DNA from: Lentilitoribacter sp. Alg239-R112
Lineage (GTDB): Bacteria > Pseudomonadota > Alphaproteobacteria > Rhizobiales > Rhizobiaceae
Assembly (NCBI RefSeq): GCF_900537175.1
Contig: NZ_LS999833.1
Coordinates: forward strand, 930,001 to 994,000
Direction of reading: 5' to 3'
DNA: 64,000 nt
Under the pieces are notes generated by a model that saw only the letters and a program-made list of their open reading frames with translations, was not told the origin of the DNA and did not search any database. The first letter of the stretch is position 1, and each line of letters starts with the position of its first letter. The translations under genes were made by a program, and so were the position numbers. Positions 35,847 through 53,236 of the stretch are shown one piece after another.

Positions 35847-36629
35847 CTAACGATATTCTGGCTCTTCGCCATCAGGATGCGCCAAGAAGTAATATTCTCG
35901 CAACTTCAATTTGGCGGACGCTGCTTGATCTAAAATCACAGTAACCGATGGATGCATTTGTAACGCCGATGCAGGATTATGTGCTCCCATCGGACCTTCG
36001 GCCATACCTGCCACAGCATCTGCCTTCTTTTCACCCAACGCCAACAATACGATCGTCTTACTGTCGAAAATAGTCCCAATACCGGTCGTAATCGCATGGT
36101 TAGGTGGTGTCTCACCATCCGCGAAAAATTGCTTGTTTGCATCTCGTGTTGACGCAGTCAATGTTTTAACCCTCGTGCGTGAGGCCAGGCTAGAGGTTGG
36201 TTCGTTAAAGCCAATATGGCCATTACTACCGATTCCAAGAAGCTGGAGGTCGATAGGCCCTTTTTCTTTAATCAGGGTTTCATAACGGTCTGCCTCGCTA
36301 TTAGGAACTGGAGCATCTCCTCTTGGCAAGAACGTATTGGCAGGATTGAAATCAGTTTTAGAAAACAGCTCTTGTCTCATAAACTCATGGTATGAACATG
36401 GATGTGTCGGCGACAGCCCGACATACTCGTCAAGATTGAAGCTTGTCGCGTTGGCAAAGCTAACCGTACCATTTTTATATTCGTTCGAAAGCTGCTCATA
36501 TACTGGAGGCATCGTACCACCCGTTGCAAGCCCAAGAACGCTATCTGGCTTTGCCTGAACTTGATCAGTAATCATTCGTGCAGTGCGTTTCACAGCCTCT
36601 TCGGGTGTATCAAATATTAAAACTTTCAT
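35847..36629 (-). CDS. nagB: Glucosamine-6-phosphate deaminase
   Basis: A 260-residue deaminase/isomerase. FNLDEYVGL carries the active-site Asp and LGIGSNGHIGFNEP the Asp/His relay; GLATGGTMPPVYEQL is the phosphate loop. It converts glucosamine 6-phosphate to fructose 6-phosphate and ammonia. No nagA or nagK is next to it. In this window the only other amino-sugar-type enzymes are the PIG-L deacetylase and the PfkB kinase at 39.6-49.9 kb, so NagB could be the exit step of that system (inference). Confidence 0.95.
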   Translation of the reverse strand: MKVLIFDTPEEAVKRTARMITDQVQAKPDSVLGLATGGTMPPVYEQLSNEYKNGTVSFANATSFNLDEYVGLSPTHPCSYHEFMRQELFSKTDFNPANTFLPRGDAPVPNSEADRYETLIKEKGPIDLQLLGIGSNGHIGFNEPTSSLASRTRVKTLTASTRDANKQFFADGETPPNHAITTGIGTIFDSKTIVLLALGEKKADAVAGMAEGPMGAHNPASALQMHPSVTVILDQAASAKLKLREYYFLAHPDGEEPEYR

Positions 36630-37423: not shown

Positions 37424-37554
37424 AGCGATACCTCCAGACAAACATAATTCTCGCGTATCTATTTACTCGCTTACAATCTCAAATGCCATATTCATATCAA
37501 GCTTATTATGTTATTATTTTGTTATACAGTTTGTTTTGAAAGGTGCTCCCCCAT

Positions 37555-38097
37555 ATGCCATTTAGTTACTCGGGCTTTGTAGAAAAAATGCGTGTTGCTG
37601 CCAGTTCTCAAACGCCAACAATATCAGTTCGCGAAGAACTTGTATCCACATTAGCAAGCGAAGAATTGCAAAAGTCTGGCTTACCTGAGCAACATGAAGA
37701 TGAAATTCTTCTATTTGAGGACGACACGGTTTCGATATGGTCTTGCCGATTTAATCCGGAATTTGTCATGCCACCACACGAGCACAAGATGGAAGTTCAT
37801 ATTGGTGTTGTATCAGGTCAAGAAAAGAACATCATGTTCGAGCAAAATAATGGCGTACTAAAACACGTCAAAACGGAGATTGTTGGTCCCGGCGAGATCC
37901 TGTCAATTGGTGCTGATGCCCTGCATGCAGTGACCGCCATTGGAGATACACATAGCCATGCGCTGCATGTTTATCTTGGTCCTCTAACAAAGGTTAAGCG
38001 CGATCTCTATGATTGGATAACTGGCAGCGCTGTTGATTTTACCATGGAAAATTTTGAAGATATGAAACGTTCTCCGAAGGAACTGCCAGCATTTTAG
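37555..38097 (+). CDS. Cupin-fold protein, possible cysteine-dioxygenase-like metalloprotein
   Basis: About 180 residues. The centre carries PPHEHKMEVHIGVV and a later HAVTAIGDTHSHALHVYLG, matching the two histidine/glutamate motifs of a metal-binding cupin. The arrangement resembles predicted metal-dependent proteins of the cysteine dioxygenase superfamily. ATG 37555 is used; AAGG precedes it at somewhat long spacing, and a GTG at 37543 is an alternative. Isolated gene; substrate unknown. Confidence 0.65.
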   Translation: MPFSYSGFVEKMRVAASSQTPTISVREELVSTLASEELQKSGLPEQHEDEILLFEDDTVSIWSCRFNPEFVMPPHEHKMEVHIGVVSGQEKNIMFEQNNGVLKHVKTEIVGPGEILSIGADALHAVTAIGDTHSHALHVYLGPLTKVKRDLYDWITGSAVDFTMENFEDMKRSPKELPAF

Positions 38098-38121: not shown

Positions 38122-38718
38122 TCACCCCACAGGCCTCGTCTGTTGCATATCAGTTCGTTCTGAGAATACCTGCACCCAAGCATCGAGCGCTGTACAATCC
38201 CGACGCCAACCGCTTGTGTATCTAAAGTCAAGATATTCAAGAGCGCACGCAATCACAATTTGCTCTAATCTGATTTCACCCTCGGTAATCAAATCAGCCC
38301 ACGCTTCCAACTGTTCAACGCAACGTCCCATACGGGCTTTAAGTTTCGAAATTCGAGCGACATTCCGTTCATCCTCTGGTAACATCATTTCCATACGATA
38401 TTGAAGGCAGGCATCTGTCATTCCCAGCGCCAAAGAAATTCGGGTAGCCTGTTGAAAATCTGTTTTGTTAGTTTTATGACCAGTCGAGTTTTCAAAATAT
38501 TCAAATATGGTTCTACTATCAAAAATGGCCATATCGTCGGCAACCATTGTTGGAATTTGGCGCAGTGGGTTAAATTGATCTATAAACTCTGCACTATAAA
38601 TATCGATTTGTTCATAGGTAAAATTAGCCCCAAGTACCTCTCCATATATTTTGGTCATACGAGCAAATGGCGACGTCGGCCCACCATATAGCGTTGGTTG
38701 AACTTGTTTAGTTTTCAT
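38122..38718 (-). CDS. Glutathione S-transferase-like protein
   Basis: A 198-residue protein with an N-terminal thioredoxin-fold domain (TLYGGPTSPFARMTKIYGEV; serine in the usual catalytic position; NPLRQIPTMV and the DSRTIFEYFE glutathione contact) and a helical C-terminal domain. It overlaps the DMT transporter gene by 4 bp and is the last gene of the operon ROK regulator, PIG-L deacetylase, DMT transporter, GST. It might open or detoxify a product of that pathway using glutathione (inference). Confidence 0.85.
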   Translation of the reverse strand: MKTKQVQPTLYGGPTSPFARMTKIYGEVLGANFTYEQIDIYSAEFIDQFNPLRQIPTMVADDMAIFDSRTIFEYFENSTGHKTNKTDFQQATRISLALGMTDACLQYRMEMMLPEDERNVARISKLKARMGRCVEQLEAWADLITEGEIRLEQIVIACALEYLDFRYTSGWRRDCTALDAWVQVFSERTDMQQTRPVG

Positions 38719-39599
38719 AATTTAGTCTTCTCCAAATTAATTGATTTACGACGTGCTGATAAAGTTGCCCAAAGCGTTGCTCCAACAATAAGTACTGCAC
38801 CAAATACAAAGCCCAATTGAGGAATTTCGTCAAATACAAAATAGCCAACACTTGTACTTAGAAGCAGGCTTGAATAACTTAACAGAGCTAGAAATCCTGC
38901 TTCGCCCCATTTGTGTGCTTTTAAGAAACAGAACTGCGCAGATTGGGCAAATAAGCCTATGGCTAGCAAAATTGGCCAGTCATTTAGTTGCATTGGCACC
39001 CATGACCAGAGCGCAAATGGAAGGGTTAATATTGATAAGCCGGCCGTGTAAAATGTCATCATCACAACCGTTGGCGCGCCCGACAATTTACGTGTGACAA
39101 TGATTGCAGACGTACCAAATATTACGGTCAGGAATAAAGCAGGAAGCCCCCAAGTTAGGACCAGTTCGCCAGGCTCGAGGGCGATGATTACACCAATCAA
39201 ACCGATGACAGCCGCAATCCATTGTCTTGAGGAAATGGTTTCTCGCAAAATAAATGCAGCCATGACCATTAAAACCAGCGGCCGTGTAAAATTAATGGCG
39301 GTAAACAATGCAAATGGTATGCGTGCGATTGCGAAAAAACTGGTCGTCAAAGTTAATGCAGACAGTCCTACTCTCAATGCATGAAGTTGCAGGTGCTGAA
39401 TGTCCTTAAATGCACTTGGCTGACTTAAAATCCAAGGAACCATCATAAAGAACCCGATAATGGCGCGAAGAAAAACAATCTGCCATGCAGTATATTCAAG
39501 CCCCACAGACTTGACGATTGTCAGCGCCCAAATATTGAGACTCATATCAGCAAGCAACCACACGCCACCTAGAAAATTTCTAGGTTTTTCAACCATCAT
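38715..39599 (-). CDS. DMT-superfamily (EamA) transporter
   Basis: A 294-residue protein with ten predicted membrane helices in two EamA repeats. Such proteins usually export metabolites. It overlaps the PIG-L deacetylase gene upstream (11 bp) and the GST gene downstream (4 bp), so it is part of the ROK/PIG-L operon. It may export a by-product of the conjugate breakdown proposed for this block. Confidence 0.9.
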   Translation of the reverse strand: MMVEKPRNFLGGVWLLADMSLNIWALTIVKSVGLEYTAWQIVFLRAIIGFFMMVPWILSQPSAFKDIQHLQLHALRVGLSALTLTTSFFAIARIPFALFTAINFTRPLVLMVMAAFILRETISSRQWIAAVIGLIGVIIALEPGELVLTWGLPALFLTVIFGTSAIIVTRKLSGAPTVVMMTFYTAGLSILTLPFALWSWVPMQLNDWPILLAIGLFAQSAQFCFLKAHKWGEAGFLALLSYSSLLLSTSVGYFVFDEIPQLGFVFGAVLIVGATLWATLSARRKSINLEKTKL

Positions 39600-41946
39600 T
39601 ATAAATCAGGTTGGCCATAATGTTAAAAGCACCAGGCGTTAGCTTTTCCATCTGATGGTGCAAAATTAGCGATGTATGAGTATGACGGCCCTTATTAATT
39701 TTGGCGGTCAGCATTGACCCCAAAAGGGCCTGTTCATCGGGATCATGCATTGATAGCAAGGGTGTGTAAGATGCATCCCAGTCCATTGCAAAATACAAGC
39801 CGCGTTCTTTGTGCCATCCCTCCCAATCATTACTGGAAATTATATTCGGTAAGTTAAAAATCGAATGTTCTGGCTGCAGAATTTCTACCTCTGCATTCTC
39901 ATCCGTCACACGCCACCGCAAGGATGGTTGCCCTATTTTAAGGTACTTAGGTGGTACGGCATCCGGGTTCCAGTTATCCCACGGTCGATGATATAACGTC
40001 ACTAAGTTTCCGCCATTTTCACACCATTTATGAAGACGTGGCATCTGCTCAAGAAGACCATCGCGAAACTTCATTGCAAATATGCCAATAACAATTGAAT
40101 CATACGTCGCAAGCGTTTGATCACTTTGCAGGTCTGTATCGGTAAGCGATGTTACATTAAGGCCCATCTGCGCCAACCAATAATCTACGCGGTCATTACC
40201 TCCCCCGACATAACCAATGCGTGAATTAGATAATTTTGTATCAATCACTAATACTTTAACCTTCGCAGGCTGTGCTAATGCCCTGGGAGCAACATGAGGA
40301 TAATTAATTTCTGTCACACTTTGCGCAGGAACATCACTCACAGTCAGAGATAATTCATAGAGCCCTACATCTACATTATCTGGTGCAGTTACTTCAAAAC
40401 CCATATTCGTTGCATTTGCCACCCAACCATCTGGAACAATTAAGTTTGTTCGCTCAGCGTCATTCATAACGCCGTCCACAGCAACATCTATCTGACGTCT
40501 GTTTGCGTTCACATTAATAATCTGTGTAACAGGGGTCATGATAGCGGATTTTAACGGAATAACATTTGGTTGAACTTCCAGCTGAACCCGTGAACAAGAA
40601 GTAACGCCATAAACCGTCACCTCAACGTTTAAACAAGGGACTGTCGGCGTATCTGGAAGGTAAATAGAGGGATATGGGTCGCTAACATCGGCGCGATCAT
40701 CTATTGATATTTGCCCATCTATATAACTCCAGTCATCTGGAAGTTCTGGGGTGACAACAACTTGATCTGATCGGCCCTTTCTAACCTCAATTGTCAAGGG
40801 CGTTGCTTCACCAGGACGCAACACATCTAAATCTGTTCGACTAATGACCTCCACTCTTGCTGCAACACGAATAAGATTAGAAAGCTGTGTTTCCTTGCGA
40901 ACCAATTTATGCAGAACATCAGCTTTAGCATTTTCTGGACAGAATTTAATGGCCTCTCGTACACTTTCCAGCGCAGAGTTGGCATGTTTTAAGATCTTCA
41001 CATTATCGGGAAAAGAAGCCCTAGCCGCATCCATTTGCGCCTGAGCCTTCTTTAAAATCGTTGAAATTTCTGAAACATTAACATCGGCCAAAGTTTTAGC
41101 CAGGCCGGATTCGAGCACAACATCAGGGCCATCGAGCCGACTATCCGCTAGATGCAACGGAAAATGGTGCTCCTCTCCCGATGGCACCCACCTTCCCATA
41201 GCCTGTGTGCGATGAAATGCGCGCGATTGTTGTCCAATGCGATGGTAACCCCAACCGCTACCCGCCTCAATTCCATCTCCTGAGATCGTTAAAGTCGCAG
41301 GCGGTGGTGGCAAGTCATCATCATAAGCCTGCCCTGCTCCCGACCAGGCAGGAAGATACATTTTCTTCACTTGCCAAGGCTCTAAGTCGCATTCATCATA
41401 ATTTGGGTCAGCTGCTAAATCCATAACCAAATGCGCAGCTTCAGTCATTGCTCTGTGATGGCCATGTTGACCTGGAATATCAAGGAATGTTGGACATATG
41501 ATATCCGGACGTTCTGTGCGGATAATCTCAACAAACCGTTTCAAGGTGCGCTTCTTATCCCATTTTCCTAACGTCTCGATACCAGATTTGGAAAACCCGA
41601 AGTCAAATATACTGTCATCCGGAGTTTGAGAATGCCAATACATACGCAGATTGAGAATGTCACATGCTCGCTCCATTTCAGCTGTACGCAATACTCCCAA
41701 AGCTTGGCCCGTTTCCGTTCCAATATCGTTCTGACCACCCTCACCCCTGGTTGAACAAGCATAACTGATGTCAATACCATCGCGGAAAGCCATCGCCGCC
41801 AGCATAGCTGATGTCTCATCATCTGGATGCGCACCAGTATTCATAAATGAAACTATGGTTTGTAACGGTGTTAAGGAGCGCCATAGCTGCAACAAATGAG
41901 GCGTTTGCTTTTCATTAACAATACGTTCTTGATCCGTGAGAGGCAT
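39589..41946 (-). CDS. Two-domain PIG-L family N-acetylglucosaminyl-type deacetylase (785 aa)
   Basis: Residues about 30-280 form a PIG-L/LmbE domain with the zinc motif AHPDDE (39-44) and a second histidine region GQHGHHRAMTEAA, as in BshB and MshB, which deacetylate GlcNAc conjugates. A linker with beta-rich repeats (about 370-560) leads to a C-terminal GATase1/ThuA-like domain (about 580-785, YDSIVIGIFAMKF, GGNLVTLYHRPWDNW). No signal peptide, so it acts in the cytoplasm on imported or internal substrate. Start ATG 41946 follows GGAG. It lies 46 bp after the ROK regulator and is divergent from a sugar ABC operon. At 785 residues it is about three times the size of a minimal PIG-L enzyme. 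Confidence 0.85.
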   Translation of the reverse strand: MPLTDQERIVNEKQTPHLLQLWRSLTPLQTIVSFMNTGAHPDDETSAMLAAMAFRDGIDISYACSTRGEGGQNDIGTETGQALGVLRTAEMERACDILNLRMYWHSQTPDDSIFDFGFSKSGIETLGKWDKKRTLKRFVEIIRTERPDIICPTFLDIPGQHGHHRAMTEAAHLVMDLAADPNYDECDLEPWQVKKMYLPAWSGAGQAYDDDLPPPPATLTISGDGIEAGSGWGYHRIGQQSRAFHRTQAMGRWVPSGEEHHFPLHLADSRLDGPDVVLESGLAKTLADVNVSEISTILKKAQAQMDAARASFPDNVKILKHANSALESVREAIKFCPENAKADVLHKLVRKETQLSNLIRVAARVEVISRTDLDVLRPGEATPLTIEVRKGRSDQVVVTPELPDDWSYIDGQISIDDRADVSDPYPSIYLPDTPTVPCLNVEVTVYGVTSCSRVQLEVQPNVIPLKSAIMTPVTQIINVNANRRQIDVAVDGVMNDAERTNLIVPDGWVANATNMGFEVTAPDNVDVGLYELSLTVSDVPAQSVTEINYPHVAPRALAQPAKVKVLVIDTKLSNSRIGYVGGGNDRVDYWLAQMGLNVTSLTDTDLQSDQTLATYDSIVIGIFAMKFRDGLLEQMPRLHKWCENGGNLVTLYHRPWDNWNPDAVPPKYLKIGQPSLRWRVTDENAEVEILQPEHSIFNLPNIISSNDWEGWHKERGLYFAMDWDASYTPLLSMHDPDEQALLGSMLTAKINKGRHTHTSLILHHQMEKLTPGAFNIMANLIYNDG

Positions 41947-41992
41947 CTTATCTCCAAATTAAATGGCCAATATCTTGGCCGCTATATTGGTG

Positions 41993-43165
41993 CTAATGCA
42001 CCGGGATAAATTGAGGTGTATAGGTTTGATTGAGAACGAGTGCGGCGGCGCCAAGCGTCGCCGTAAGGCGGCTTGATTCCCCTGTTTTCAGTCTTGGTTG
42101 CTCTCGCTCTAATCGATTGGATACTGACAGATCCGGCAAAGGTGCATTCGCAACTAGATGATCAAGCACCCCAGATGGCATCGCCCCGCCGACGATAATT
42201 GTCTGGGGATCAAACATGTTTTCGATAATTTGTGTTGCATGTCCCAAAGCTTGGCTCGCTGTATCCAGCCATTCAAACAGATAAGGGTCCTTATCGGAAA
42301 ATAACTCGGTCAAGCGCTCAAAATCGACCGAACCCTGACCATTATTTTGCAAATAACGTTGCACAGAAAGCCGACTTAGAACGCTTTCCAATGATGCATA
42401 TTCTCCATTGACCAGAACAGATACATGGCCAATTTCACCTGCATTTCCAAATGCGCCAGAAATCAAATGCCCTTGACTTACCAAACCCAGGCCAAGACCT
42501 GTACCAAAATAAAGATACGCATAAGTTGATAGACCCTGAGCAACACCTGTTATACGTTCTGCCATCGCAGATGCATTTGCATCATTACTCACCATAATGG
42601 GAATCTCCAACGCCTCGTGAAATAGCTTAGCTGGATCAACTTCGCTCCATTCGGGCAAGTCAGAACCCTGCCCGATAAGGCCAGTTGTTCCAAACGGTCC
42701 GGGCATCACAATGCCTGCACCAAGTAACTTGTCTTGTGCCGATGGAATAGCTGCAATCATCTCATCCCGCAGAGCAGTAACATGACTTATTACGGCGGCA
42801 GGGCGTGCATCTTTGAATGTTATTCTATGTTTGAAAACGGTCTTACCTTGCATATCTAAAAGTGCTGCAAGGATAGCATTTGGGCGGACTTCTATTCCAA
42901 ACGCATATCCACCGTCTGGATTGACGCCATATTGTAAGGCAGGTAATCCTCGGCCACTGGCTCGTGTTCCCTTTTCATGAAGCAGCCCATCTTCAAGCAA
43001 CTCAGCGATAATATTGCTAACTGCTTGCGTCGAAAGACTAAGATTGCGAGCGATTTCCGCTCTCCCCATTTCCCCCGCACTATGAATATAGCCCATAACG
43101 GCCCGCCGATTACTCGATCTGGAACGCTCTGCATTACTGCCTTTGGGTGATGAAATTATAGCCAT
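41993..43165 (-). CDS. ROK-family transcriptional regulator (NagC-like), kinase motifs lost
   Basis: A 390-residue protein with an N-terminal winged helix (about 18-75, MGRAEIARNLSLSTQAVSNII) and a ROK sugar-binding domain (NDANASAMAERI, YLYFGTGLGLGLV, GNAGEIGH). The phosphate-binding DxGGT motif is replaced (FGIEVRPN) and the cysteine-rich zinc motif CxCGxxGC after GEIGH is missing (VNGEYASLE), so it should not be a kinase. It diverges from the sugar-binding-protein gene and precedes the PIG-L gene; it probably represses both arms until a sugar ligand binds. Confidence 0.9.
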   Translation of the reverse strand: MAIISSPKGSNAERSRSSNRRAVMGYIHSAGEMGRAEIARNLSLSTQAVSNIIAELLEDGLLHEKGTRASGRGLPALQYGVNPDGGYAFGIEVRPNAILAALLDMQGKTVFKHRITFKDARPAAVISHVTALRDEMIAAIPSAQDKLLGAGIVMPGPFGTTGLIGQGSDLPEWSEVDPAKLFHEALEIPIMVSNDANASAMAERITGVAQGLSTYAYLYFGTGLGLGLVSQGHLISGAFGNAGEIGHVSVLVNGEYASLESVLSRLSVQRYLQNNGQGSVDFERLTELFSDKDPYLFEWLDTASQALGHATQIIENMFDPQTIIVGGAMPSGVLDHLVANAPLPDLSVSNRLEREQPRLKTGESSRLTATLGAAALVLNQTYTPQFIPVH

Positions 43166-43292
43166 GTAAATTAATTAACTCAAGCCAGTTGATAATTCAA
43201 GTCGATTGAGTAATGATAGAAGTAAGAAACTGAAAAGATATTCGAAGTCAGCTCAATTTGAATGAGATGACATATAAACTGGGAGAACAATA

Positions 43293-44552
43293 ATGATGAA
43301 ACGAGTAAGAAATCTAGTTGTGGCCGGCCTAACGTCGTCCATAGCAGTACTAGGAAGTACGAGCGCGCAAGCGGTCGAAATCGAATATTGGCAGTATTTT
43401 TTCGATGCGCGTGTGGATGCCATGGAACAACTGATCGATGGGTTTGAAGCTGCTAACCCTGACATAACAGTTAAAATGACCCATTTTCCCTATGCGGATT
43501 ATCGCACAAAGGTTTCAGCTGCTATTCCTGCAGGTGAAGGACCGGATGTTGTTCAACTATTTTATGGCTGGTTGAATGACTATAGAGCGGCAAACCTCAT
43601 TCAGCCTTTATCGGAATCAGATTTTCCTGCAGCTAAGATTGATGAAGAATTTTTCCCAATGGTGCAAGCCATGAAGGTTGATGGTCAGTATTTTGCCCTT
43701 CCAACAGCTGTTCGTTCGCTTGCGTTGTTTTACAATAAGCGCCTCTTTAAAGAAGCGGGAATTGATGCGCCGCCGGCAAATCTGGACGAGTTGGTTGAAA
43801 CCGCAAAGAAAATAGCAAAGCGTGATGGTGCAGGAAATCTAACAACTGTTGGATTTACAACTGGTATGAATGCGCAGGATCATCATTGGTGGCGTGAAGT
43901 ACTTGTTCGCCAGTTTGGTGGCGAGGCTTATAAAGATGATTACAAACAAGTAAATTACAATGATGATGCCGGATTAGCTGCTCTTAACTTCTACACATCA
44001 TTGGAAAAAGAGCATGGTGTAACTGCATTTGGCTTTATGGATGAGCCACAAGCTGCATTTAAAGCCGGACGTGCAGGTATGCATATCGACGGCTCTTTCC
44101 GTATTGGTTCACTTAATAAAATTCGCGGACTAGATTGGGGTGTCGCTGAACTTCCTGCTGGACCAGATGGCACAAAATCCAATTACTCATCTTACTGGGT
44201 GAATGCGATTACCACCAAAGCAAAAGATGAAAAGTACGAAGCTTCGGTCAAGTTCATGCAGTATATTACATCAGATGATGCGATGCAGGTTTGGCTTGAT
44301 GTGGTAGGCGAGTTGCCAGCCAAGCCGAGCGTTGGTTTGACTGACAAGAATGCTAACAATGAAGTCTTTGGACCATTTATCAAAGGTCTTGCATATGCAC
44401 ATACGACAAAGTTTGCGAATGAAAGTTCTCAACGTCAAGTCTTGATGGATATGGTTTCTCGCACAGACATCGAAGGACAAGCTGCAAAAGACAGCCTTGC
44501 CCAAGCTGCTGAGCAGGAACAAAAAATACTGACTGAATATTATACAAAATAA
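43293..44552 (+). CDS. ABC sugar-type substrate-binding protein (CUT1 family)
   Basis: A 419-residue periplasmic protein with a Sec signal peptide (cleavage near STSAQA, residues 23-28). It shows the CUT1 fold (FEAANPDITVKM, GEGPDVVQLFYGWLNDYRAANLIQPL, FALPTAVRSLALFYNKRLF). Two ATGs in tandem (43293, 43296) follow GGGAG. It heads an operon of two permeases, an argininosuccinate-lyase-like enzyme, an ATPase and a PfkB kinase. The ligand is unknown; the operon suggests a sugar or amino-sugar conjugate. Confidence 0.9.
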   Translation: MMKRVRNLVVAGLTSSIAVLGSTSAQAVEIEYWQYFFDARVDAMEQLIDGFEAANPDITVKMTHFPYADYRTKVSAAIPAGEGPDVVQLFYGWLNDYRAANLIQPLSESDFPAAKIDEEFFPMVQAMKVDGQYFALPTAVRSLALFYNKRLFKEAGIDAPPANLDELVETAKKIAKRDGAGNLTTVGFTTGMNAQDHHWWREVLVRQFGGEAYKDDYKQVNYNDDAGLAALNFYTSLEKEHGVTAFGFMDEPQAAFKAGRAGMHIDGSFRIGSLNKIRGLDWGVAELPAGPDGTKSNYSSYWVNAITTKAKDEKYEASVKFMQYITSDDAMQVWLDVVGELPAKPSVGLTDKNANNEVFGPFIKGLAYAHTTKFANESSQRQVLMDMVSRTDIEGQAAKDSLAQAAEQEQKILTEYYTK

Positions 44553-44557
44553 CTAGT

Positions 44558-44578
44558 GATGCAGAGGTTTTCTGCATC
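44558..44578 (+). terminator. Hairpin after the binding-protein gene
   Basis: GATGCAGA (44558-44565) and TCTGCATC (44571-44578) form a perfect 8-bp stem six bases after the stop. A second, weaker stem (CCATA/TATGG, about 44607-44621) follows before the permease start. Likely partial termination. Confidence 0.7.
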
Positions 44579-44664
44579 CAACCTCTTCTCCCTGAGGCGT
44601 GTTTCCATAGTGTTTATGGGGCACGTCGCTGGGAAATTATAGATATCTCTAAGAATGTGGGACT

Positions 44665-45558
44665 ATGCTTTTTTATAAAAACCTATCAATCAAACAGAAA
44701 CAGATAGTCTGGGCATGGACTTTCCTCGCTCTGCCTGTTCTCTTCTACGGAGTGATTAGGTTTTATCCAACCGGAAATGCTATCCTGATTTCTTTCCAAA
44801 ATTGGAATCTTTTGGGCTCTCGCACTTGGGCTGGATTGGATAATTATATAAAACTTTTCAACGATCCAGTATTTTGGAAGGTTTTTAAAAACACGTTTAT
44901 CTACCTTCTACTGGGTACTCCTATCTCGCTCATTATTTCTTTTATTGTTGCCTATCATCTTGATAAACTGCGCTTCATGCATGGCTTTCTGCGGATGTTG
45001 TATTTTCTTCCGTTTATGACAAGTGCCGTTGCGATGGCATGGGTTTGGCGCTGGTTTTATCAAGATGTACCAATAGGACTGTTTAATAATTTTCTTGCCG
45101 GATTTGGTATTCCACAAATTGAATTTTTAAACTCCACCACAAATGCGTTGCCTGCTGTCTTGGCTCCCGCGGTTTGGGCGGGTCTGGGTTTTCAGATCAT
45201 AATCTTCATGGCTGGAATTCGCGCAATTCCTACCACTTACTATGAGGCCGCGCGTATCGATGGCGTTGGTTGGTGGACTATTTTAACTCAAATTACAATT
45301 CCGCTTTTGCGACCAACAATTGTTTTTATCGTCGTGTTTTCATCGATCGGATTTTTGCGCATTTTCGATCACGTATTCAACATGACAACAAACAATCCTG
45401 GTGGTCCGCTAAACGCAACAAAACCTCTGGTGCTTATGATTTACGACACAGCTTTTAATGGCTTTGACATGGGGTATGCATCGGCACAAACCGTTGTTCT
45501 ATTTCTCATATTGCTGGTTGTCAGCCTTATTCAACTCCGCTTATTGAGGAGCAAATAG
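44665..45558 (+). CDS. ABC sugar permease, MalF/UgpA type
   Basis: A 297-residue permease with six predicted helices and the EAA loop YEAARIDGVGWWTILTQITI near 191-210. It precedes its partner with no gap. Together with 45559-46437 it forms the membrane channel of the transporter associated with the lyase and kinase. Confidence 0.92.
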   Translation: MLFYKNLSIKQKQIVWAWTFLALPVLFYGVIRFYPTGNAILISFQNWNLLGSRTWAGLDNYIKLFNDPVFWKVFKNTFIYLLLGTPISLIISFIVAYHLDKLRFMHGFLRMLYFLPFMTSAVAMAWVWRWFYQDVPIGLFNNFLAGFGIPQIEFLNSTTNALPAVLAPAVWAGLGFQIIIFMAGIRAIPTTYYEAARIDGVGWWTILTQITIPLLRPTIVFIVVFSSIGFLRIFDHVFNMTTNNPGGPLNATKPLVLMIYDTAFNGFDMGYASAQTVVLFLILLVVSLIQLRLLRSK

Positions 45559-46437
45559 ATGGCTTCTGCTGATACAATTCGCGCATCCAGCGCAACGCTT
45601 TTAGATACAAAACCTGCCGGAAAACCTCAGAATATGGGGCAAATCATTCGTTGGCTTTTGCTGTTTGCAGGTGGCATTGTTATGATTATGCCAATTGTCT
45701 ATATGATCTCTACATCATTGAAATGGCCGCATGAAGTTTATAACATCAACCTCATCCCAGATGAACCAACTTTAGACAATTATAACTATGTGCTGGAAGA
45801 TGGGCGTTTTTACTGGTGGTTCGTTAATTCTACGATCATTGCTACACTTACAACAATCTCAAATTTGCTCTTTGATAGCCTGGTTGGTTACACATTATGT
45901 AAGTTCAAGTTTCCAGGTCGAACACTTGTTTTCATCGCGATCTTATCAACACTTATGATACCGACCGAGATGCTTGTTATTCCGTGGTATTTAATGAGCC
46001 AAGAATTTGGTTGGCTCGATAGTTATTGGGGTATCATGTTCCCGGGCCTTATGACTGGTTTTGGAACATTTTTAATGAAGCAGTTTTTTGAATCGGTTCC
46101 CGATGATTTCATTGAAGCCGCACGAATTGATGGTCTAAACGAGTTGCAAATTTGGTGGACTGTTGCGATGCCGCTTGTCAAACCAGCCCTAGCCGCACTG
46201 GCAATATTTGTTTTCTTAGGCAATTGGACAGCATTCTTGTGGCCGCTTATTGTCACCAATTCACCGGATATGTACACCATCCCCGTTGGCCTATCTGGCT
46301 TTGGCGATGAGGTTGATGTTGCATGGGAATTGATTATGACTGGTGCAGCAATCTCAACAATTCCAACCCTCATCGTATTTTTAATTTTCCAACGCTTCAT
46401 CATTCGCGGCGTTGTTATGGCTGGACTTAAAGGATGA
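45559..46437 (+). CDS. ABC sugar permease, MalG/UgpE type
   Basis: A 292-residue permease with six helices and the EAA loop IEAARIDGLNELQIWWTVAM. It begins directly after the first permease and overlaps the lyase gene by 4 bp (ATGA at 46434), which firmly ties the lyase to the transporter. Confidence 0.92.
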   Translation: MASADTIRASSATLLDTKPAGKPQNMGQIIRWLLLFAGGIVMIMPIVYMISTSLKWPHEVYNINLIPDEPTLDNYNYVLEDGRFYWWFVNSTIIATLTTISNLLFDSLVGYTLCKFKFPGRTLVFIAILSTLMIPTEMLVIPWYLMSQEFGWLDSYWGIMFPGLMTGFGTFLMKQFFESVPDDFIEAARIDGLNELQIWWTVAMPLVKPALAALAIFVFLGNWTAFLWPLIVTNSPDMYTIPVGLSGFGDEVDVAWELIMTGAAISTIPTLIVFLIFQRFIIRGVVMAGLKG

Positions 46438-47918
46438 TTGATACTTCTAAATTCCCCAATCCTATCTACAAAGAAACGGTGCTTGCGCCTTTGTTTGAGG
46501 GTGTCAAAAATCACTATGCTTCGCATATGTCCAAAATCAATAAAGCACATTTGGTCATGCTTGTTGAAACAGGGATTCTGAGCAATGATCAAGGTAAGAT
46601 AATTGCTGACGCTTTAAGCAAGATTGATAAAGACACTGATATTCCCTCCCTAACCTACACAGGTGAGCACGAGGATTACTTCTTCTTTGTTGAAGCTCGG
46701 CTTCGTGATTTACTTGGTGATCTTGGCGGTGCATTACATACCGCTCGTTCTCGAAATGATATGGACCACACGCTGTTTAAAATAGCTCTCAGAACACGCG
46801 CAGAAACAATGCTTGTGCAAGTGCTACAACTTACGGATGCATTGATTGAAAAGGCCAGTAAAGAACACAAGACCCCAATCGTTGCCTATACTCACGGGCA
46901 ACCTGCACAACCTTCGACTTTCGGGCACTATTTAGGTGCTATGATTGAAGTGTTAATTCGAGATGCAACGCGGCTTGAAACGGCAATCAATGACCTTAGC
47001 CATTGCCCAATGGGGGCAGCTGCGATTACTACATCAGGTTTTCCAATTGATCGCGAACGCATGGCGGATCTTTTAGGTTTTGATGGTCCATTAGTAAATT
47101 CATATGGATGCATTGCAAGCGTTGACTATATCACAGGATTATATTCAGCGATTAAATTGGTTTTCATACATTTAGGTCGCGTCATACAGGATCTTGCTTT
47201 TTGGTCGGCGTTTGAAGTCAGTCAATTATATGTGCCAAATGAACTCGTTCAGATTAGCTCGATCATGCCGCAAAAACGTAATCCGGTTCCTATTGAACAT
47301 ATGCGCCATTTAGCATCTGTCACAGTTGGCCGATGTGACACCATTGTCAATACGATGCATAACACCCCTTATACTGATATGAATGATAGTGAAGGTGAGG
47401 TTCAGCAGGCAGGATACGTAACATTTGAAAGTGGCAGCCGAGTGTTAGAACTTCTCACAGCTTTCCTTCCTGCATGTTCAATTAATGCAGACGCAGTGCA
47501 GCGAAATACCGATGCAGCATGTATTACGATCACAGAGCTTGCCGATACATTGGTGAGAGACGAAAACCTTACATTCCGACAAGCACATGAGATTGCTGCA
47601 GCAACAGCCAAGTCCGTTATCGCACAAAACAAACCGCTCCGAGAGGGATATGATGCATTTATCAAAGCCTTTGAAGCGGAAGAAGGTCGGAAAACACATA
47701 TTTCGGATGATACTTTCCGAAATATCGTATCTGTTGAAAATTTCATTGCAAAGCGAGATCGTACAGGTGGCCCTGCACCGATAGCGCTAAATACAGCACT
47801 CAAATCGTATACAAACCAGACTTCACAATTACATATGAAGCAAATTCAAAGACACACGAAGCGCAGCGATGCTCAAGCCCGTCTTGATGTTGCTTTCTCA
47901 TCCCTGATGGAGCACTAA
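46434..47918 (+). CDS. Argininosuccinate-lyase-like enzyme in a sugar transport operon
   Basis: A 494-residue member of the fumarase/aspartase/ASL superfamily. Conserved blocks are LHTARSRND (101-109), THGQPAQP (153-160, general acid/base region) and the mobile catalytic-serine loop SSIMPQKRNP (275-284). It departs from true argininosuccinate lyase: the N-terminal WGGRF motif is absent, and THLQRAQP is THGQPAQP. Such lyases eliminate fumarate from substituted succinates; EDDS lyase is a known non-arginine example. Its overlap with the permease and the two-base gap to the ATPase gene argue for a catabolic role on the imported compound, for example an N-substituted aspartate or O-substituted malate joined to a sugar (inference). 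Confidence 0.85.
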   Translation: MIDTSKFPNPIYKETVLAPLFEGVKNHYASHMSKINKAHLVMLVETGILSNDQGKIIADALSKIDKDTDIPSLTYTGEHEDYFFFVEARLRDLLGDLGGALHTARSRNDMDHTLFKIALRTRAETMLVQVLQLTDALIEKASKEHKTPIVAYTHGQPAQPSTFGHYLGAMIEVLIRDATRLETAINDLSHCPMGAAAITTSGFPIDRERMADLLGFDGPLVNSYGCIASVDYITGLYSAIKLVFIHLGRVIQDLAFWSAFEVSQLYVPNELVQISSIMPQKRNPVPIEHMRHLASVTVGRCDTIVNTMHNTPYTDMNDSEGEVQQAGYVTFESGSRVLELLTAFLPACSINADAVQRNTDAACITITELADTLVRDENLTFRQAHEIAAATAKSVIAQNKPLREGYDAFIKAFEAEEGRKTHISDDTFRNIVSVENFIAKRDRTGGPAPIALNTALKSYTNQTSQLHMKQIQRHTKRSDAQARLDVAFSSLMEH

Positions 47919-47919
47919 C

Positions 47920-48975
47920 TTGGCTAATCTTAATTTACAAAACCTCACCAAGGCCTACGGAAAAGTTGAAGTAGTTCACGGCATAAACTTGGAAGTTCAC
48001 GATGGTGAATTTCTGGTTTTTGTTGGTCCATCTGGTTGTGGTAAATCCACTACACTTCGAATGATCGCCGGGCTTGAAGAAATCACATCAGGCATTATTA
48101 ATATCGCTGACCGAGAAGTTAACAACTTGGAACCCAAAGAGCGCAATATTGCAATGGTGTTTCAAAACTACGCCATCTATCCGCACATGTCGGTGAAGAA
48201 GAATATTGCCTTTGGCTTACGGTCCTCCAAAGCCTCCAAGGCTGAAAAAGAAGCACGTATACTCGAGGTCGCAGGCATCTTGGATATGACAGATCTACTT
48301 GAGCGACGCCCCAACGAATTGTCCGGTGGCCAACGCCAGCGTGTCGCTATTGGCCGCGCTATGGTTCGTGACCCAGCGGTATTTTTATTTGATGAGCCTT
48401 TGTCAAATTTAGATGCCCAGCTTCGCACCCAAATGCGCTTGGAAATAAAGAAGCTGCATCAACGTGTGAACAGTACGATCATTTTTGTAACCCATGATCA
48501 GGTTGAAGCCATGACACTGGCCGACCGAATTGTGATCATGAAAGATGGTCATATTCAACAAGTCGGCACTCCTGAAGAGGTTTACCACAAGCCCGCAAAT
48601 ACGTTTGTTGCTCAATTCATTGGAGCTCCTTCAATGAATATGCTCAAAGGTTCTTACTCAAATAATACCGTGAAGTTAGAGTCTGGTCTTTCTACGCAGC
48701 TGAATGGCAGTAGATCTGCTAATGAAGAAATTTTGCTTGGCGTGAGACCTGACGACTTAACTCTTGGCAGTAAAACTCCAATCATCAAAGGTCATGTGAC
48801 TGTTCGAGAACCTCTTGGGCCGGAAACACTTATTTATGTTGAGACGAAAACTGGTGAAGTTATAGCAAAAGCGGATGGTAAAATGCCACCGGCCATTGGC
48901 GAAGAAGTATCTCTTGGTGTTGAACCTGAGAATATGCATCTATTCGATGCAAAGACCGGAGCGGCAATCGTTTGA
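47920..48975 (+). CDS. ABC transporter ATP-binding protein (UgpC/MsmK type)
   Basis: A 351-residue ATPase with Walker A GPSGCGKST, signature LSGGQRQRVAIGRAM, Walker B FLFDEPLSNLD and the C-terminal regulatory OB domain. The start is TTG 47920, one base after the lyase stop. It overlaps the kinase gene by 4 bp. It powers the permeases at 44665-46437. Confidence 0.93.
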   Translation: MANLNLQNLTKAYGKVEVVHGINLEVHDGEFLVFVGPSGCGKSTTLRMIAGLEEITSGIINIADREVNNLEPKERNIAMVFQNYAIYPHMSVKKNIAFGLRSSKASKAEKEARILEVAGILDMTDLLERRPNELSGGQRQRVAIGRAMVRDPAVFLFDEPLSNLDAQLRTQMRLEIKKLHQRVNSTIIFVTHDQVEAMTLADRIVIMKDGHIQQVGTPEEVYHKPANTFVAQFIGAPSMNMLKGSYSNNTVKLESGLSTQLNGSRSANEEILLGVRPDDLTLGSKTPIIKGHVTVREPLGPETLIYVETKTGEVIAKADGKMPPAIGEEVSLGVEPENMHLFDAKTGAAIV

Positions 48976-49889
48976 CCCAGCCATCTCAACCATTTTCAGT
49001 ATTATGCGCAGGCCGTCTTTATTGTGATCTGGTCTTCACAGATGTTCCTAGATTGCCAACAATGGGTACGGAAACCTTTGCCGGCGGGCTTGGGCTGCAT
49101 ACAGGCGGAGGTGCGTTTATTACTGCCGTTACTTTAGCCAAACTTGGGCAGAGGTTATCGTTGCTGTCTACTTTTCCCGCCGCGCCATTTAACAAACTAA
49201 CAGAAATTGAAATTCTACAAAATGATATCAATATCGACCTGTGCGCCGAGGCGCCTTTGGGTAGTGATCCACAAGTAACAGTAGCTATCGCATCTAAAAA
49301 TGATCGCGCATTTCTTAGCCGGAAGAGTGGGGCTGCTCTACCTAAAATACATGCAGATAAAATGAATGGTTTTCATCATTTACATATTGGGGAACTCCGC
49401 ACCCTCAAGGAGCATCCTGAACTCATTGACCTCGCGCGAGATGCAAAGCTTACGATTTCACTCGATTGCGGATGGGATGATGAGCTCATGAATGACGCAA
49501 ATGGCTTAGCGAAGCTGATTGCCAGCGTTGACATATTCTTGCCGAATGAAATGGAAGCTAACCAGTTAAAGCGACTTGGGATCGCTGAAAACACCGCTCC
49601 CCTTACCGTTATAAAATGTGGCTCTGATGGTGCACGCGCGCATACAAAGAACGATTTTTTTTCGGCGGAAACCTGGTCTGTGGATGTAATTGATGCGACA
49701 GGTGCAGGCGATGCATTCAATGGCGGCTTCATATATGAATGGCTCAGAAATTCACCTATTGATCAGTGTCTGCGAACAGGAAATGCCTGTGGAACAGCTG
49801 CCGTACAAGGTCGCGGCGGTACCGGAGGGCTGAATTCATTGCTAGAGTTAGTGGCAGTTAACTCGCCGAACCTGCAAGCTAGCAATTAG
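48972..49889 (+). CDS. PfkB-family carbohydrate kinase
   Basis: A 305-residue ribokinase-type kinase starting with TTG 48972 that overlaps the ATPase stop. The glycine-rich N-terminal motif GGLGLHTGGGAFITAVTLAK and the C-terminal DATGAGDAFNGGF, with the catalytic aspartate in GAGD, are intact. It should phosphorylate the sugar released inside the cell. If that sugar is glucosamine, the product would be the NagB substrate; this is inference. Last gene of the operon, followed by a convergent gene after 27 bp. Confidence 0.9.
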   Translation: MTQPSQPFSVLCAGRLYCDLVFTDVPRLPTMGTETFAGGLGLHTGGGAFITAVTLAKLGQRLSLLSTFPAAPFNKLTEIEILQNDINIDLCAEAPLGSDPQVTVAIASKNDRAFLSRKSGAALPKIHADKMNGFHHLHIGELRTLKEHPELIDLARDAKLTISLDCGWDDELMNDANGLAKLIASVDIFLPNEMEANQLKRLGIAENTAPLTVIKCGSDGARAHTKNDFFSAETWSVDVIDATGAGDAFNGGFIYEWLRNSPIDQCLRTGNACGTAAVQGRGGTGGLNSLLELVAVNSPNLQASN

Positions 49890-49916: not shown

Positions 49917-51209
49917 TCAAAGCGTTTCTGGGACAAAATCACTGCCACTATCAACCGAATCCGGGCGACCTTCGATTGATAAAGAGCTTATGCGCGGCGG
50001 CGTTTGACTAATAACTTTTCCACCTTTGATGACGAACAGTCGGGTCGGTTTTAAACGCAATGCTTCAATTACATCACTAGCTTGCAAAATTACCAGATCT
50101 GCATTGCACCCAACATTCAGACCGTATTTCTCCAGTCCCATAGTGCGGGCAGAGTTAAGTGTTATGGCGTCAAAAATCTTTTTCTTATCCTCGATGCTTC
50201 CCATTTGGGTAGCATGGATACCCATATGAGCGACCTCGAGCATATCCGCTGATCCCATAGAATACCAAGGGTCCATTGTGCAATCCTGACCGAACGAAAC
50301 ATTTAAACCAGCATCCATTAGTTCGCGCACGCGTGTTAATCCGCGGCGTTTGGGATATGTATCATGACGCCCCTGCAACATCATATTTATAAGCGGATTT
50401 GGGATCACATTAATCTTGGCCTCGGCCATGAGTGGAATGAGTTTTGAGACGTAATAATTATCCATTGAATGCATAGATGTAAGGTGCGAACCAGCTACCT
50501 GCCCTTCTAAACCAAAACGTATTGTTTGCGCTGCAAGAGTTTCTATATGGCGTGACATTGGGTCATCTGTTTCATCGCAATGGATATCCACACATAGTCC
50601 TCGGTCGGCAGCAATTCGACACAGCGCTTCCAAAGATGCGCGACCATCCTCCATGGTGCGTTCAAAATGCGGAATACCACCGACAATTTCAATACCCATA
50701 TCAAGCGCTCGGTTGAGTGCAGCTACACCGTCAGGTGCACGAAGATATCCATCCTGAGGGAACGCCACCAATTGCAGATCAATATAAGGAGCAACTTTTT
50801 CCCGAACTTCCAACATCGCCTCTGCCGTTACCAGCCGTGGATCAGATGTATCGACGTGACTTCGAATAAACAGCAGACCCTGGCTGACGGCTAAATCGCA
50901 ATAACGCAAAGCACGATCGACCAGCTCTTCCTTTGTAACAATCGGTCTTAACTCACCCCAAAGGGTAATTCCCTCCAATAAAGTACCCGACACGTTCATC
51001 CGCGGTTTTCCGAGGGATAAAGTAGCATCCATGTGAAAATGTGGATCACAAAATGCTGGGCTTAAAAGACGACCACTAGCGTCAATCTCATTGCCGCTCT
51101 CACCCTCTAATCGTTTTTCAATCGCAGTGATCTTGCCCGATGAAATCCCAACATCAAAACCACTTTGACCAGAGGTAAGGTTTGCATTGCGGATAATAAG
51201 ATCAAACAT
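49917..51209 (-). CDS. Cytosine-deaminase-family amidohydrolase
   Basis: A 430-residue enzyme very similar along its length to E. coli CodA as I recall it. Metal and catalytic residues are present: His57, His59, Gln152, His210, Glu213, His242, Asp309 (CodA 61, 63, 156, 214, 217, 246, 313). CodA Asp314, in the substrate pocket, is replaced by Cys310 (GQDCTMDPWY). It should deaminate cytosine or a related nucleobase or cyclic amidine. Start ATG 51209 has GGAG upstream. It is the last gene of the BMP transporter operon. Confidence 0.85.
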   Translation of the reverse strand: MFDLIIRNANLTSGQSGFDVGISSGKITAIEKRLEGESGNEIDASGRLLSPAFCDPHFHMDATLSLGKPRMNVSGTLLEGITLWGELRPIVTKEELVDRALRYCDLAVSQGLLFIRSHVDTSDPRLVTAEAMLEVREKVAPYIDLQLVAFPQDGYLRAPDGVAALNRALDMGIEIVGGIPHFERTMEDGRASLEALCRIAADRGLCVDIHCDETDDPMSRHIETLAAQTIRFGLEGQVAGSHLTSMHSMDNYYVSKLIPLMAEAKINVIPNPLINMMLQGRHDTYPKRRGLTRVRELMDAGLNVSFGQDCTMDPWYSMGSADMLEVAHMGIHATQMGSIEDKKKIFDAITLNSARTMGLEKYGLNVGCNADLVILQASDVIEALRLKPTRLFVIKGGKVISQTPPRISSLSIEGRPDSVDSGSDFVPETL

Positions 51210-51245
51210 AGTCTATCTCCAATAAGTGGACGTAGCGTTCAGTTT

Positions 51246-52190
51246 CTAGCGTTCGCCGCGGCGGAATGGCTGCATAAGCGCTTGCGGTACGCGCGCGCGA
51301 CGAGCCATCACCGCAAGGGCAGCGATGGAAAGAATATAAGGTATCATCAAGAATATCTGGTAGGGCACAACACCGCTGAGTACTGTTTGCAAGCGGAACT
51401 GAAATCCATCAAAGAATGCAAATAGCAGAGCGCCCAACAACGCTCGTGAAGGTCGCCATGAGGCAAAAACAACGAGTGCAATACAAATCCAGCCACGACC
51501 CTGTACCATGGTCGGGAAGAAACTGTTAAATGCAGAAAGCGTTAAAAATGCACCGCCTACTCCCATCAATGCGCTACCAACAATAACGGCACCATAACGA
51601 ACGACAATCGGATTTATTCCTTGCGCCTCTGCGGCATGAGGGTTCTCACCAGTCATCCTTATTGCAAGACCAAGGGGCGTTCTAAATATGACATAGGCCA
51701 AAACGAATGCCAGCACGATGGCAAGATAAGTTGGTGGTGTTTGTGAGAAAAATGCGGGGCCAAAAAAAGGTATTGACGACAGACCAGGAATATCAATTGG
51801 CTGAAAAGCCTCAATTGTTGGCGGCGTACCCGCAACGGGCACCAGAAGTCGGAAAACATAATAGGAGAAGCTCGACGCAAATAGAGTGACACCTAAACCG
51901 CTAACATGTTGAGATAGACCTAGGGTAACAGTGAACAAAGCATGCAGCAGCCCGAATATGCCGCCAGCAATTGCGGCAACTAAGATACCCGTCCATAAAT
52001 CCGCACCATTGAAAACTGCAAGCCACCCAATCATGGCTCCGAACGTCATAATGCCCTCTATACCCAAATTAAGAACGCCTGCGCGCTCACATAACAAAGC
52101 ACCCAGAGTACCAAATATCAGCGGAGTCGCGATGCGTAGCACAGCAGCCCATAGGCCAGCTGACGAAAGTATGTCGATTATCTCGTTCAT
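51246..52190 (-). CDS. BMP-type (nucleoside) ABC transporter permease, second subunit
   Basis: A 314-residue permease with about eight helices. The segments GTLGALLCERAGVLNLGIEGIM (about 27-48) and IRMTGENPHAAEAQGINP are typical of YufQ/NupQ-like subunits of nucleoside ABC importers. It overlaps the first permease gene by 4 bp and precedes the deaminase by 36 bp. Confidence 0.9.
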   Translation of the reverse strand: MNEIIDILSSAGLWAAVLRIATPLIFGTLGALLCERAGVLNLGIEGIMTFGAMIGWLAVFNGADLWTGILVAAIAGGIFGLLHALFTVTLGLSQHVSGLGVTLFASSFSYYVFRLLVPVAGTPPTIEAFQPIDIPGLSSIPFFGPAFFSQTPPTYLAIVLAFVLAYVIFRTPLGLAIRMTGENPHAAEAQGINPIVVRYGAVIVGSALMGVGGAFLTLSAFNSFFPTMVQGRGWICIALVVFASWRPSRALLGALLFAFFDGFQFRLQTVLSGVVPYQIFLMIPYILSIAALAVMARRARVPQALMQPFRRGER

Positions 52191-53236
52191 CTGCGGATCC
52201 TATATTGAGTGAAAAATATTGCGACCAACATCGACAATAGTGACAGCGCCACAGTTACATCTGCGATATAGGTCGGGATTTCCATCACCCGGCTCATCCC
52301 GTCCGCACCTACAAACATGGCAGCAATGAACAATGCAGCGAAAACAACTCCGATTGGATTAAGGTTTGCCAGCATCGCTACAACAATACCTGAATATCCA
52401 AACCCGGGAGAGAGCTCCGTCGTCACATAGCCTTGCACACCCATGACCTCAATTGAACCAGCCAGGCCCGCAAAGCCACCAGACATCATGGCGACTAAAA
52501 CCAATGTTTTCCCCAATGGAACGCCTGCAAAAATTGCGGCCTCCGGATTAAGCCCAGCGGCACGAGACTGGATACCAAATACCGTCCGCGACTGAACAAA
52601 ATATACGACCACCGCAAGTACAATAGCAATGAGCAAGCCAATATGAAGGCGAGAACGTGTTAGGAGCCGCGGCAGCATAGCCTCGTCATCAACAGGTACG
52701 GATTGTGGCCAACCAAATGCCAACGGATCTTTCAAGACAGTGTCGATAAGCATTGAAACAAATAGAATTGCAACGAAATTAAGCAAAAGTGTCGTTACCA
52801 CTTCATCAACTGAAAACCGCAAGCGTAGCCAAAGAGGGATTAAAAGCAGGATCATGCCAGCTATTGCACCACAAATGAGAAGCAATGGAATCTGAACGAT
52901 GCCGGGTAATCCACCCAAAAACTGTGAGCTGATCGCAGACACTGCAATTGCGCCCATATAGAGCTGTCCTTCCGCTCCAATATTCCACAGCTTGGCGCGA
53001 AATGCGATGGCGGCGGCAAGACCAGTGAACATCAATGGTATGGCACGGGTCAGAGTTTCTGTTGCTGAAAGTCGCGACCCAAATGCACCTACTGCAATAT
53101 TCCAGTAAGCTTCGAACACCGGTGCGCCTGCTAATGCAATTAATACACCAGATAGAGCCAGCGCAACAACGATTGCGATAATTGGTGTTGCTACGACAAG
53201 CAATATGGGTTGGCGTTCACGCCGCTCAAATCGCAT
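52187..53236 (-). CDS. BMP-type (nucleoside) ABC transporter permease, first subunit
   Basis: A 349-residue permease (YufP/NupP-like). ATG 53236 is used because GAGGAGG lies six bases upstream; the ATG at 53251 is inside that site. Family segments include AFRAKLWNIGAEGQLYMGAI and SRAAGLNPEAAIFAGV. Its start lies 11 bases inside the end of the ATPase gene. Confidence 0.9.
   Translation of the reverse strand: MRFERRERQPILLVVATPIIAIVVALALSGVLIALAGAPVFEAYWNIAVGAFGSRLSATETLTRAIPLMFTGLAAAIAFRAKLWNIGAEGQLYMGAIAVSAISSQFLGGLPGIVQIPLLLICGAIAGMILLLIPLWLRLRFSVDEVVTTLLLNFVAILFVSMLIDTVLKDPLAFGWPQSVPVDDEAMLPRLLTRSRLHIGLLIAIVLAVVVYFVQSRTVFGIQSRAAGLNPEAAIFAGVPLGKTLVLVAMMSGGFAGLAGSIEVMGVQGYVTTELSPGFGYSGIVVAMLANLNPIGVVFAALFIAAMFVGADGMSRVMEIPTYIADVTVALSLLSMLVAIFFTQYRIRR

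Follow-up and report, generated by a model that had tools for sequence, protein, structure and literature searches.

The 64,000-nucleotide stretch of Lentilitoribacter sp. Alg239-R112 DNA analysed here (C1:930001-994000 of a 3.9 Mb genome; hereafter the window) carries two divergent operons around a common operator-like region, an arrangement that is beyond chance and that almost all of the 80 closest loci with a related lyase share. We propose that these operons form a regulated pathway that breaks down an N-acyl-glucosamine carrying a C4 dicarboxylate, a reading to which we give somewhat better than even chances. Observed were the gene content, its conservation, dyads between the operons, a lyase that falls outside the ArgH group, deaminase neighbours in some of the loci and a genome-wide link to deaminases; from these we infer the reactions, their order and the substrate.

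The left-going operon (minus strand) encodes, in order, a ROK-family repressor with a winged helix-turn-helix (41993-43165; PF00480, 119 bits), a 785-aa PIG-L/LmbE-type amidohydrolase with a PIG-L domain (39589-41946), an EamA/DMT transporter (38715-39599; PF00892) that overlaps the PIG-L gene by 11 bp, and a GST-like protein (38122-38718; PF02798) that overlaps the transporter gene by 4 bp. The right-going operon (plus strand) encodes a sugar-type, CUT1-like solute-binding protein (SBP; 43293-44552; PF13416/PF01547), two ATP-binding cassette (ABC) permeases that are UgpA-like (permease 1, 44665-45558) and UgpE-like (permease 2, 45559-46437; both PF00528), a Lyase_1/ASL_C2 lyase of the fumarase/aspartase superfamily (46434-47918; PF00206 and PF14698), a UgpC-like ABC ATPase (47920-48975; NF008653, 502.6 bits, cut-off 432) and a PfkB-family kinase (48972-49889; PF00294), the last two with TTG starts. 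Open reading frames (ORFs) and domain searches agree with an earlier note on this DNA, which had described two divergent operons with these gene families. Its junctions of a few bases hold in most places, with exceptions of 112 bp between SBP and permease 1 and 46 bp between PIG-L and ROK.

Relatives were collected with a profile of 12 lyases, and the best 80 of at least 489 are the named loci used for counting, a locus being eligible where it has enough sequence on the relevant side of the lyase. By their record titles, these 80 relatives come mostly from Rhodobacteraceae and Hyphomicrobiales, with two from Granulosicoccaceae; at the near end, the window lyase is 80% and a cupin outside the operons 96% identical to close relatives named Lentilitoribacter. 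Among eligible named loci, the SBP (76/76), permease 1 (76/76), permease 2 (77/77), the ATPase (76/76) and PIG-L (71/71) are always present, the kinase is found in 61 of 71, the ROK gene is divergent in 69 of 75, and a DMT gene lies downstream of PIG-L in 48 of 71. The cassette ROK-PIG-L(-DMT) / SBP-permease-permease-lyase-ATPase-PfkB thus recurs, mostly in alphaproteobacteria, and the neighbourhood survey named in the earlier note finds lyase, kinase and deacetylase linked elsewhere. Of the operon members listed there, PIG-L, SBP, ATPase and PfkB recur; the GST is not a conserved part, and in 104 loci no ORF matched it at E 1e-3. In five loci (L074, L084, L091, L098 and L110) a different GST gene immediately follows the ATPase, at the position otherwise taken by PfkB. 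Transporter and lyase are mostly kept in 21 more distant loci from plasmids and other genomes, and in a sample of the class the lyase was found at E <= 1e-140 in 11 of 289 genomes, its own included.

Some distant loci have features of their own. On three Deinococcus plasmids (L117, L123, L139) a distant lyase with a shared HNxPFGDxND motif directly adjoins a related sugar-type SBP and two permeases. Two loci, from Bosea (L133) and Shinella (L137), have only transporter and lyase among their annotated neighbours, and an annotated substrate-binding-domain protein, probably a regulator, is divergent where ROK otherwise stands. In Terrarubrum (L120, 11736-16119) genes for an NrtR-like regulator, nadA, L-aspartate oxidase and nadC come after the core of transporter and lyase.

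A motif scan of the divergent gap located the operator-like region at 43175-43213 (no strand), where tandem dyads read TTAACTCAA-N5-TTGA-N3-TTCAA-N5-TTGAG, with copies at 43179-43193 and 43196-43210. Across loci the conserved form is TTAAYTCAA-N5-TTGA-N3-YTCAA-N5-TTGAGTTAA-like. Of 78 scorable inter-operon gaps, counting that of the window, 71 contain the dyad TCAA-N5-TTGA, where letter shuffles give an expectation of 0.28, and in 38 of the 78 another dyad follows exactly 17 bp on; the seven gaps that have none are those of L102 and six distant loci. This short dyad shows no enrichment over the window as a whole (20 matches against 14.3 expected). The ROK protein, whose best NCBIfam match is NagC (94 bits, below the cut-off of 650), is likely the regulator of both operons, and we infer that it binds the dyads.

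The lyase has a Lyase_1 domain and both signature motifs of the fumarase/aspartase superfamily (TH...AQP and SSxMPQKxNP), retained as THGQPAQP, with TH154 kept, and SSIMPQKRNP. Its score against the ArgH model TIGR00838 (286.9 bits) exceeds the cut-off of 279.5, so that the cut-off alone does not separate it from ArgH; this probably explains the argH labels in public records, where 22 of 27 plasmid rows at 48% identity or more are called argininosuccinate lyase (ASL). Its best NCBIfam score, to NF005218/PRK06705, is 327.6 bits (cut-off 883). In the tree, the argH of the same genome groups with the solved ASL chains 1tj7 and 2e9f (support 100/100) and the cluster lyases fall outside that group (fork 94/100), with many forks among the cluster lyases left open. 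The YNKDLQEDKE-like motif and the KKNPD loop have a role in ArgH; in the window lyase, which carries an HNTPYTDMND motif, they are replaced by HNTPYTDMNDSEGE and KRNPV. The host genome also has a separate argH, followed by an apparent lysA, as well as a fumC-like gene. The lyase therefore resembles ArgH in family and signature loop but differs in tree position, in the missing ArgH-type motif and in the presence of a separate argH in the genome, and we reject its assignment as ArgH; the phylogeny for which the earlier note had called places it outside the arginine-biosynthetic enzymes, in a genome with another argH. The best solved matches are 6rx8 and 6g3d (262 and 257 bits; ASL 2e9f, 257 bits), deposited as 'argininosuccinate lyase', which we take to be EDDS lyase. 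This enzyme is likewise ASL-like with a non-arginine substrate, but it has TQRK where the window lyase has THGQ, with TQ in place of TH, and it is placed apart from the cluster lyases on a long branch whose fork support of 80/49 makes its place unsure. By analogy with the superfamily, the lyase is predicted to release fumarate in the proposed pathway.

The PIG-L protein consists of an amidohydrolase domain at about residues 30-285, an all-beta middle part and a GATase1/ThuA-like C-terminal domain (573-785). The first of these has HPDDE and a downstream His, and its model matches the MshB and BshB fold; no solved structure matched the protein by sequence. Its best NCBIfam matches are Mca, MshB, BshB2 and BshB1, in that order (34.7, 31.1, 26.0 and 21.9 bits), none of which reaches the equivalog cut-offs of 182-277 bits. 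LmbE-like enzymes, according to the parts of a review that bear on them, act on N-acetyl- or N-acyl-glucosamine cores (PMC4101496).

Natural variation among the loci points to glucosamine 6-phosphate as the exit of the pathway. ROK-family kinases occupy the place of PfkB in L118, L119, L122 and L131. In Loktanella salsilacus a ROK-family protein stands where PfkB is otherwise found and nagB lies on the PIG-L side; the ATPase is followed by a ROK-family protein and nagB in Paroceanicella, and by a ROK-family protein and a SIS protein in Roseomonas. The operon of L126 is flanked by NagB-II, NagA and a NagK_SO3507-like kinase, the last of which lies about 6 kb from the lyase and matches its NagK model below cut-off. 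Altogether, NagB is near the lyase in L066, L118 and L122, and NagB-II lies within about 10 kb of it in 14 of the 104 loci. The NagB-II model is the best match of the four SIS proteins scanned (234-313 bits, below the cut-off of 430), and GlmS models also matched. NagB and NagB-II act on 2-amino-2-deoxy sugars.

The same link is found genome-wide. In 198 genomes of one family, NagB or NagB-II is encoded by 28 of 31 lyase carriers and by 57 of 167 genomes that lack the lyase (odds ratio 18, p 3.5e-9); the carriers with neither deaminase are G348, G471 and G477. The two deaminases tend to replace each other within carriers (both in 2, NagB only in 6, NagB-II only in 20, neither in 3; p 0.0026), and one of them is within 10 kb of the lyase in 8 of the 31, against a rough expectation of 0.18. 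A deaminase is encoded in 47 of 48 cluster genomes reached through the named loci, and in the genome of L114 neither was found at our threshold. As a class-wide background, NagB-II at 180 bits or more occurs in 14 and NagB in 5 of 142 genomes, the window's own included. As in amino-sugar catabolic operons, then, kinase and deaminase genes are linked to a transporter, with a deaminase beside the lyase in a minority of loci. From the deaminase neighbours, their proximity and their co-occurrence, the sugar is probably glucosamine and PfkB is a predicted glucosamine kinase, which bears out the amino-sugar branch of the earlier note.

Several points weigh against this reading. PfkB is missing from 10 of 71 named loci, and deacylation is not always encoded locally, because PIG-L was not found in 8 of the 21 distant loci (L119, L120, L122, L125, L126, L130, L133 and L137). 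The PIG-L fold is also that of GalB, a hydratase. Kinases alone do not prove an amino sugar, since fructokinase or glucokinase models give the best matches to the ROK kinases, and these matches, like that of the L126 kinase to its NagK model, are all below cut-off. No NagB-II match reaches the curated cut-off of 430 bits, and the working line of about 170 bits is our own. The co-occurrence p-values are optimistic, the genomes being related; one carrier (G420) was counted on a NagB match just below cut-off (227 vs 236.9 bits), and of the nagB genes near a lyase, that of G442 is below cut-off (222 bits) and that of G342 has an internal stop. NagB and NagB-II usually lie outside the cluster. This holds for the window, where a NagB glucosamine-6-phosphate deaminase (35847-36629, minus strand; TIGR00502, 279.1 bits, cut-off 236.9) is encoded in a separate operon 10 kb away with no dyad upstream, which makes it doubtful that this nagB is controlled together with the two operons. 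The earlier suggestion that it completes the route survives as a NagB-type exit.

In the pathway that we propose, the ABC transporter would import an N-acyl-glucosamine-C4-dicarboxylate conjugate, and PIG-L would hydrolyse the N-acyl (acetyl or aminoacyl) group off the glucosamine. The lyase would then eliminate the C4 unit as fumarate, leaving free glucosamine that the PfkB kinase could convert to glucosamine 6-phosphate and NagB or NagB-II to fructose 6-phosphate and ammonia. The ROK protein would repress both operons from the common operator until a pathway sugar binds. Our favoured substrate, a tentative choice, is a malyl glucosaminide: GlcNAc-malate (GlcNAc, N-acetylglucosamine), GlcN-malate (GlcN, glucosamine) or bacillithiol (BSH). 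These compounds exist in nature and present an N-acyl-glucosamine with an eliminable C4 acid, according to the passages on them in PMC4360819 and PMC6282198. It is conceivable, if rather doubtful, that marine and soil bacteria import bacillithiol-type thiols or their GlcN-malate core after other bacteria have released them, with PIG-L stripping the acyl or cysteinyl group and the ASL-type lyase splitting the malyl glycoside into fumarate and glucosamine.

A narrower version, which we regard as improbable, is bacillithiol scavenging proper: Cys-GlcN-malate, or an S-conjugate, disulfide or N-methyl form of it, would be imported, PIG-L would be a Bca/Mca-like amidase freeing cysteine, EamA would export the cysteine and the lyase would cleave GlcN-malate. 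EamA-family proteins may export cysteine, and the cassette DMT that follows PIG-L in 48 of 71 named loci is found in 0 of 2 eligible distant loci that lack PIG-L; against this, the Terrarubrum locus L120 has no PIG-L yet an annotated DMT-family transporter nearby. Mca heads the PIG-L matches, MshB, BshB2 and BshB1 following, all of them far below cut-off, and in L127 and L128, which have PIG-L and lyase, an Opp/Dpp-type SBP_bac_5 transporter follows PIG-L. A GST is encoded in the window operon and GSTs of another kind follow the ATPase in five loci, and a cupin with a thiol-dioxygenase fold lies at 37543-38097 (plus strand) and beside PfkB in L040 and L047; but GSTs and cupins are sporadic, and the cupin family is unlinked to the lyase in the 198 genomes (2/31 vs 9/167, p 0.68); in the two carriers that have it, the cupin gene and the lyase gene are on different contigs. 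Of 183 listed flanking ORFs, 95 were scanned against Pfam, a choice that excluded NagB-II, kinases and most GSTs beforehand and in which some ORFs are probably not genes. No family had more than three members and no sulfur gene family recurred; one Cys/Met-metabolism PLP (pyridoxal phosphate) enzyme was among the matches. BSH or N-methyl-BSH is reported to be widespread, including in Polaribacter of the Bacteroidetes, in the relevant part of PMC6282198. BshC (PF10079) had no match in the host genome and matched in 3 of 14 controls, B. subtilis among them; this speaks against turnover of the organism's own BSH, not against scavenging, so any use of bacillithiol here would be scavenging. Taken together, the thiol hints (cupin, GSTs, DMT and the peptide-type transporter of L127 and L128) are weak.

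Two candidates that arose in this connection were set aside. The cupin has a confident thiol dioxygenase fold model (predicted local distance difference test, pLDDT, 96), matches no Pfam or NCBIfam model, and belongs to a family in which HxH, another His and HxY are invariant across 35 rows; of 65 eligible named loci, 2 have a homologue close to the lyase, and with no genome-wide link either, it is rejected as a core part. A sulfur signature in the flanks is rejected, or at least weakened, by the 95 scanned ORFs.

Alternatively, the lyase could take a C4 acid off a compound that is not an amino sugar, such as a chelator of the opine or EDDS type or a peptide-like molecule, with the nearby amino-sugar genes serving a separate moiety. 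The sequences that we take to be EDDS lyase score next to ASL as the closest solved ones (262/257 and 257 bits), the Bosea and Shinella core loci show transporter and lyase only among annotated neighbours, and L127 and L128 have their peptide-type transporter. EDDS lyase, however, lacks TH154 and stands apart from the cluster lyases, if on a long branch of unsure place, and the deaminase link is strong, which makes this explanation unlikely in our view.

Slightly less likely again is a substrate in which an aspartyl unit is N-linked to the amino sugar, N-(1,2-dicarboxyethyl)-glucosamine, which is the Heyns product formed from fructose and aspartate. Here the lyase would cleave the C-N bond, as enzymes of the ASL group usually do, and so produce fumarate and glucosamine directly, while PIG-L would trim another amide. 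This would explain L119 and L122, which have lyase, kinase and NagB or NagB-II and no PIG-L, but it leaves PIG-L, present in all 71 eligible named loci, with no obvious task, since N2, being substituted, would not present the N-acetyl group that is the usual target; the open-licence PubMed Central (PMC) literature yielded no paper on catabolism of this kind. The Amadori-type catabolism of fructosyl-aspartate that the earlier note had entertained is very improbable: its chemistry is imaginable and PfkB is weakly similar to fructoselysine 6-kinase (44.8 bits, cut-off 247), but the models matched by the four scanned SIS proteins are those of NagB-II and GlmS, no deglycase model being listed at E 1e-15, NagB recurs, and the PIG-L step would be unexplained.

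The proposed catabolism of an N-acyl-glucosamine-C4 conjugate has parallels in known systems. Operons for N-acetylmuramic acid and GlcNAc, with the MurQ etherase, NagK, NagA and NagB, likewise combine a sugar transporter, an eliminating enzyme for an acid side group, a kinase and a deaminase; in the cluster, by contrast, the counterpart of the etherase would be an ASL-superfamily lyase, and PIG-L occupies the place of NagA. The bacillithiol biosynthesis and detoxification enzymes (BshA/B/C, Bca) share GlcNAc-malate and GlcN-malate as metabolites and include the PIG-L-family BshB and Bca, as far as the relevant sections of PMC4101496, PMC4360819 and PMC6282198 go; that pathway builds the conjugate, whereas the cluster has a lyase, a transporter, a kinase and a repressor. 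A literature search of open-licence PMC papers found, among the papers listed, no description of the gene combination, in line with the earlier note, which had known of none. Taken singly, the enzyme families are known; what looks new is their combination and the predicted reaction.

Elsewhere in the same genome lies a separate amino-sugar cluster (L142, G000:C1:741000-757000), where NagA scores over cut-off and where a CUT1-type transporter, a MurQ-like SIS protein, a NagK-like kinase and a GntR-type regulator were recognised by eye. Next to the right-going operon and convergent with it, the operon at 49917-54785 (minus strand) encodes an amidohydrolase resembling cytosine deaminase (NF005748, over cut-off), two permeases whose matches to putative B6 transporter models are below cut-off, and an apparent ABC ATPase; it looks like separate base or nucleoside salvage.

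The argininosuccinate lyase labels on such genes are probably wrong and thereby mislead annotation and metabolic models. The cluster yields a short, testable list of substrates. If the substrate is indeed a glucosamine-C4 acid conjugate, this would be a new catabolic route in which an ASL-type lyase acts on a sugar conjugate, and it would point to a nutrient pool over which marine and soil bacteria compete.

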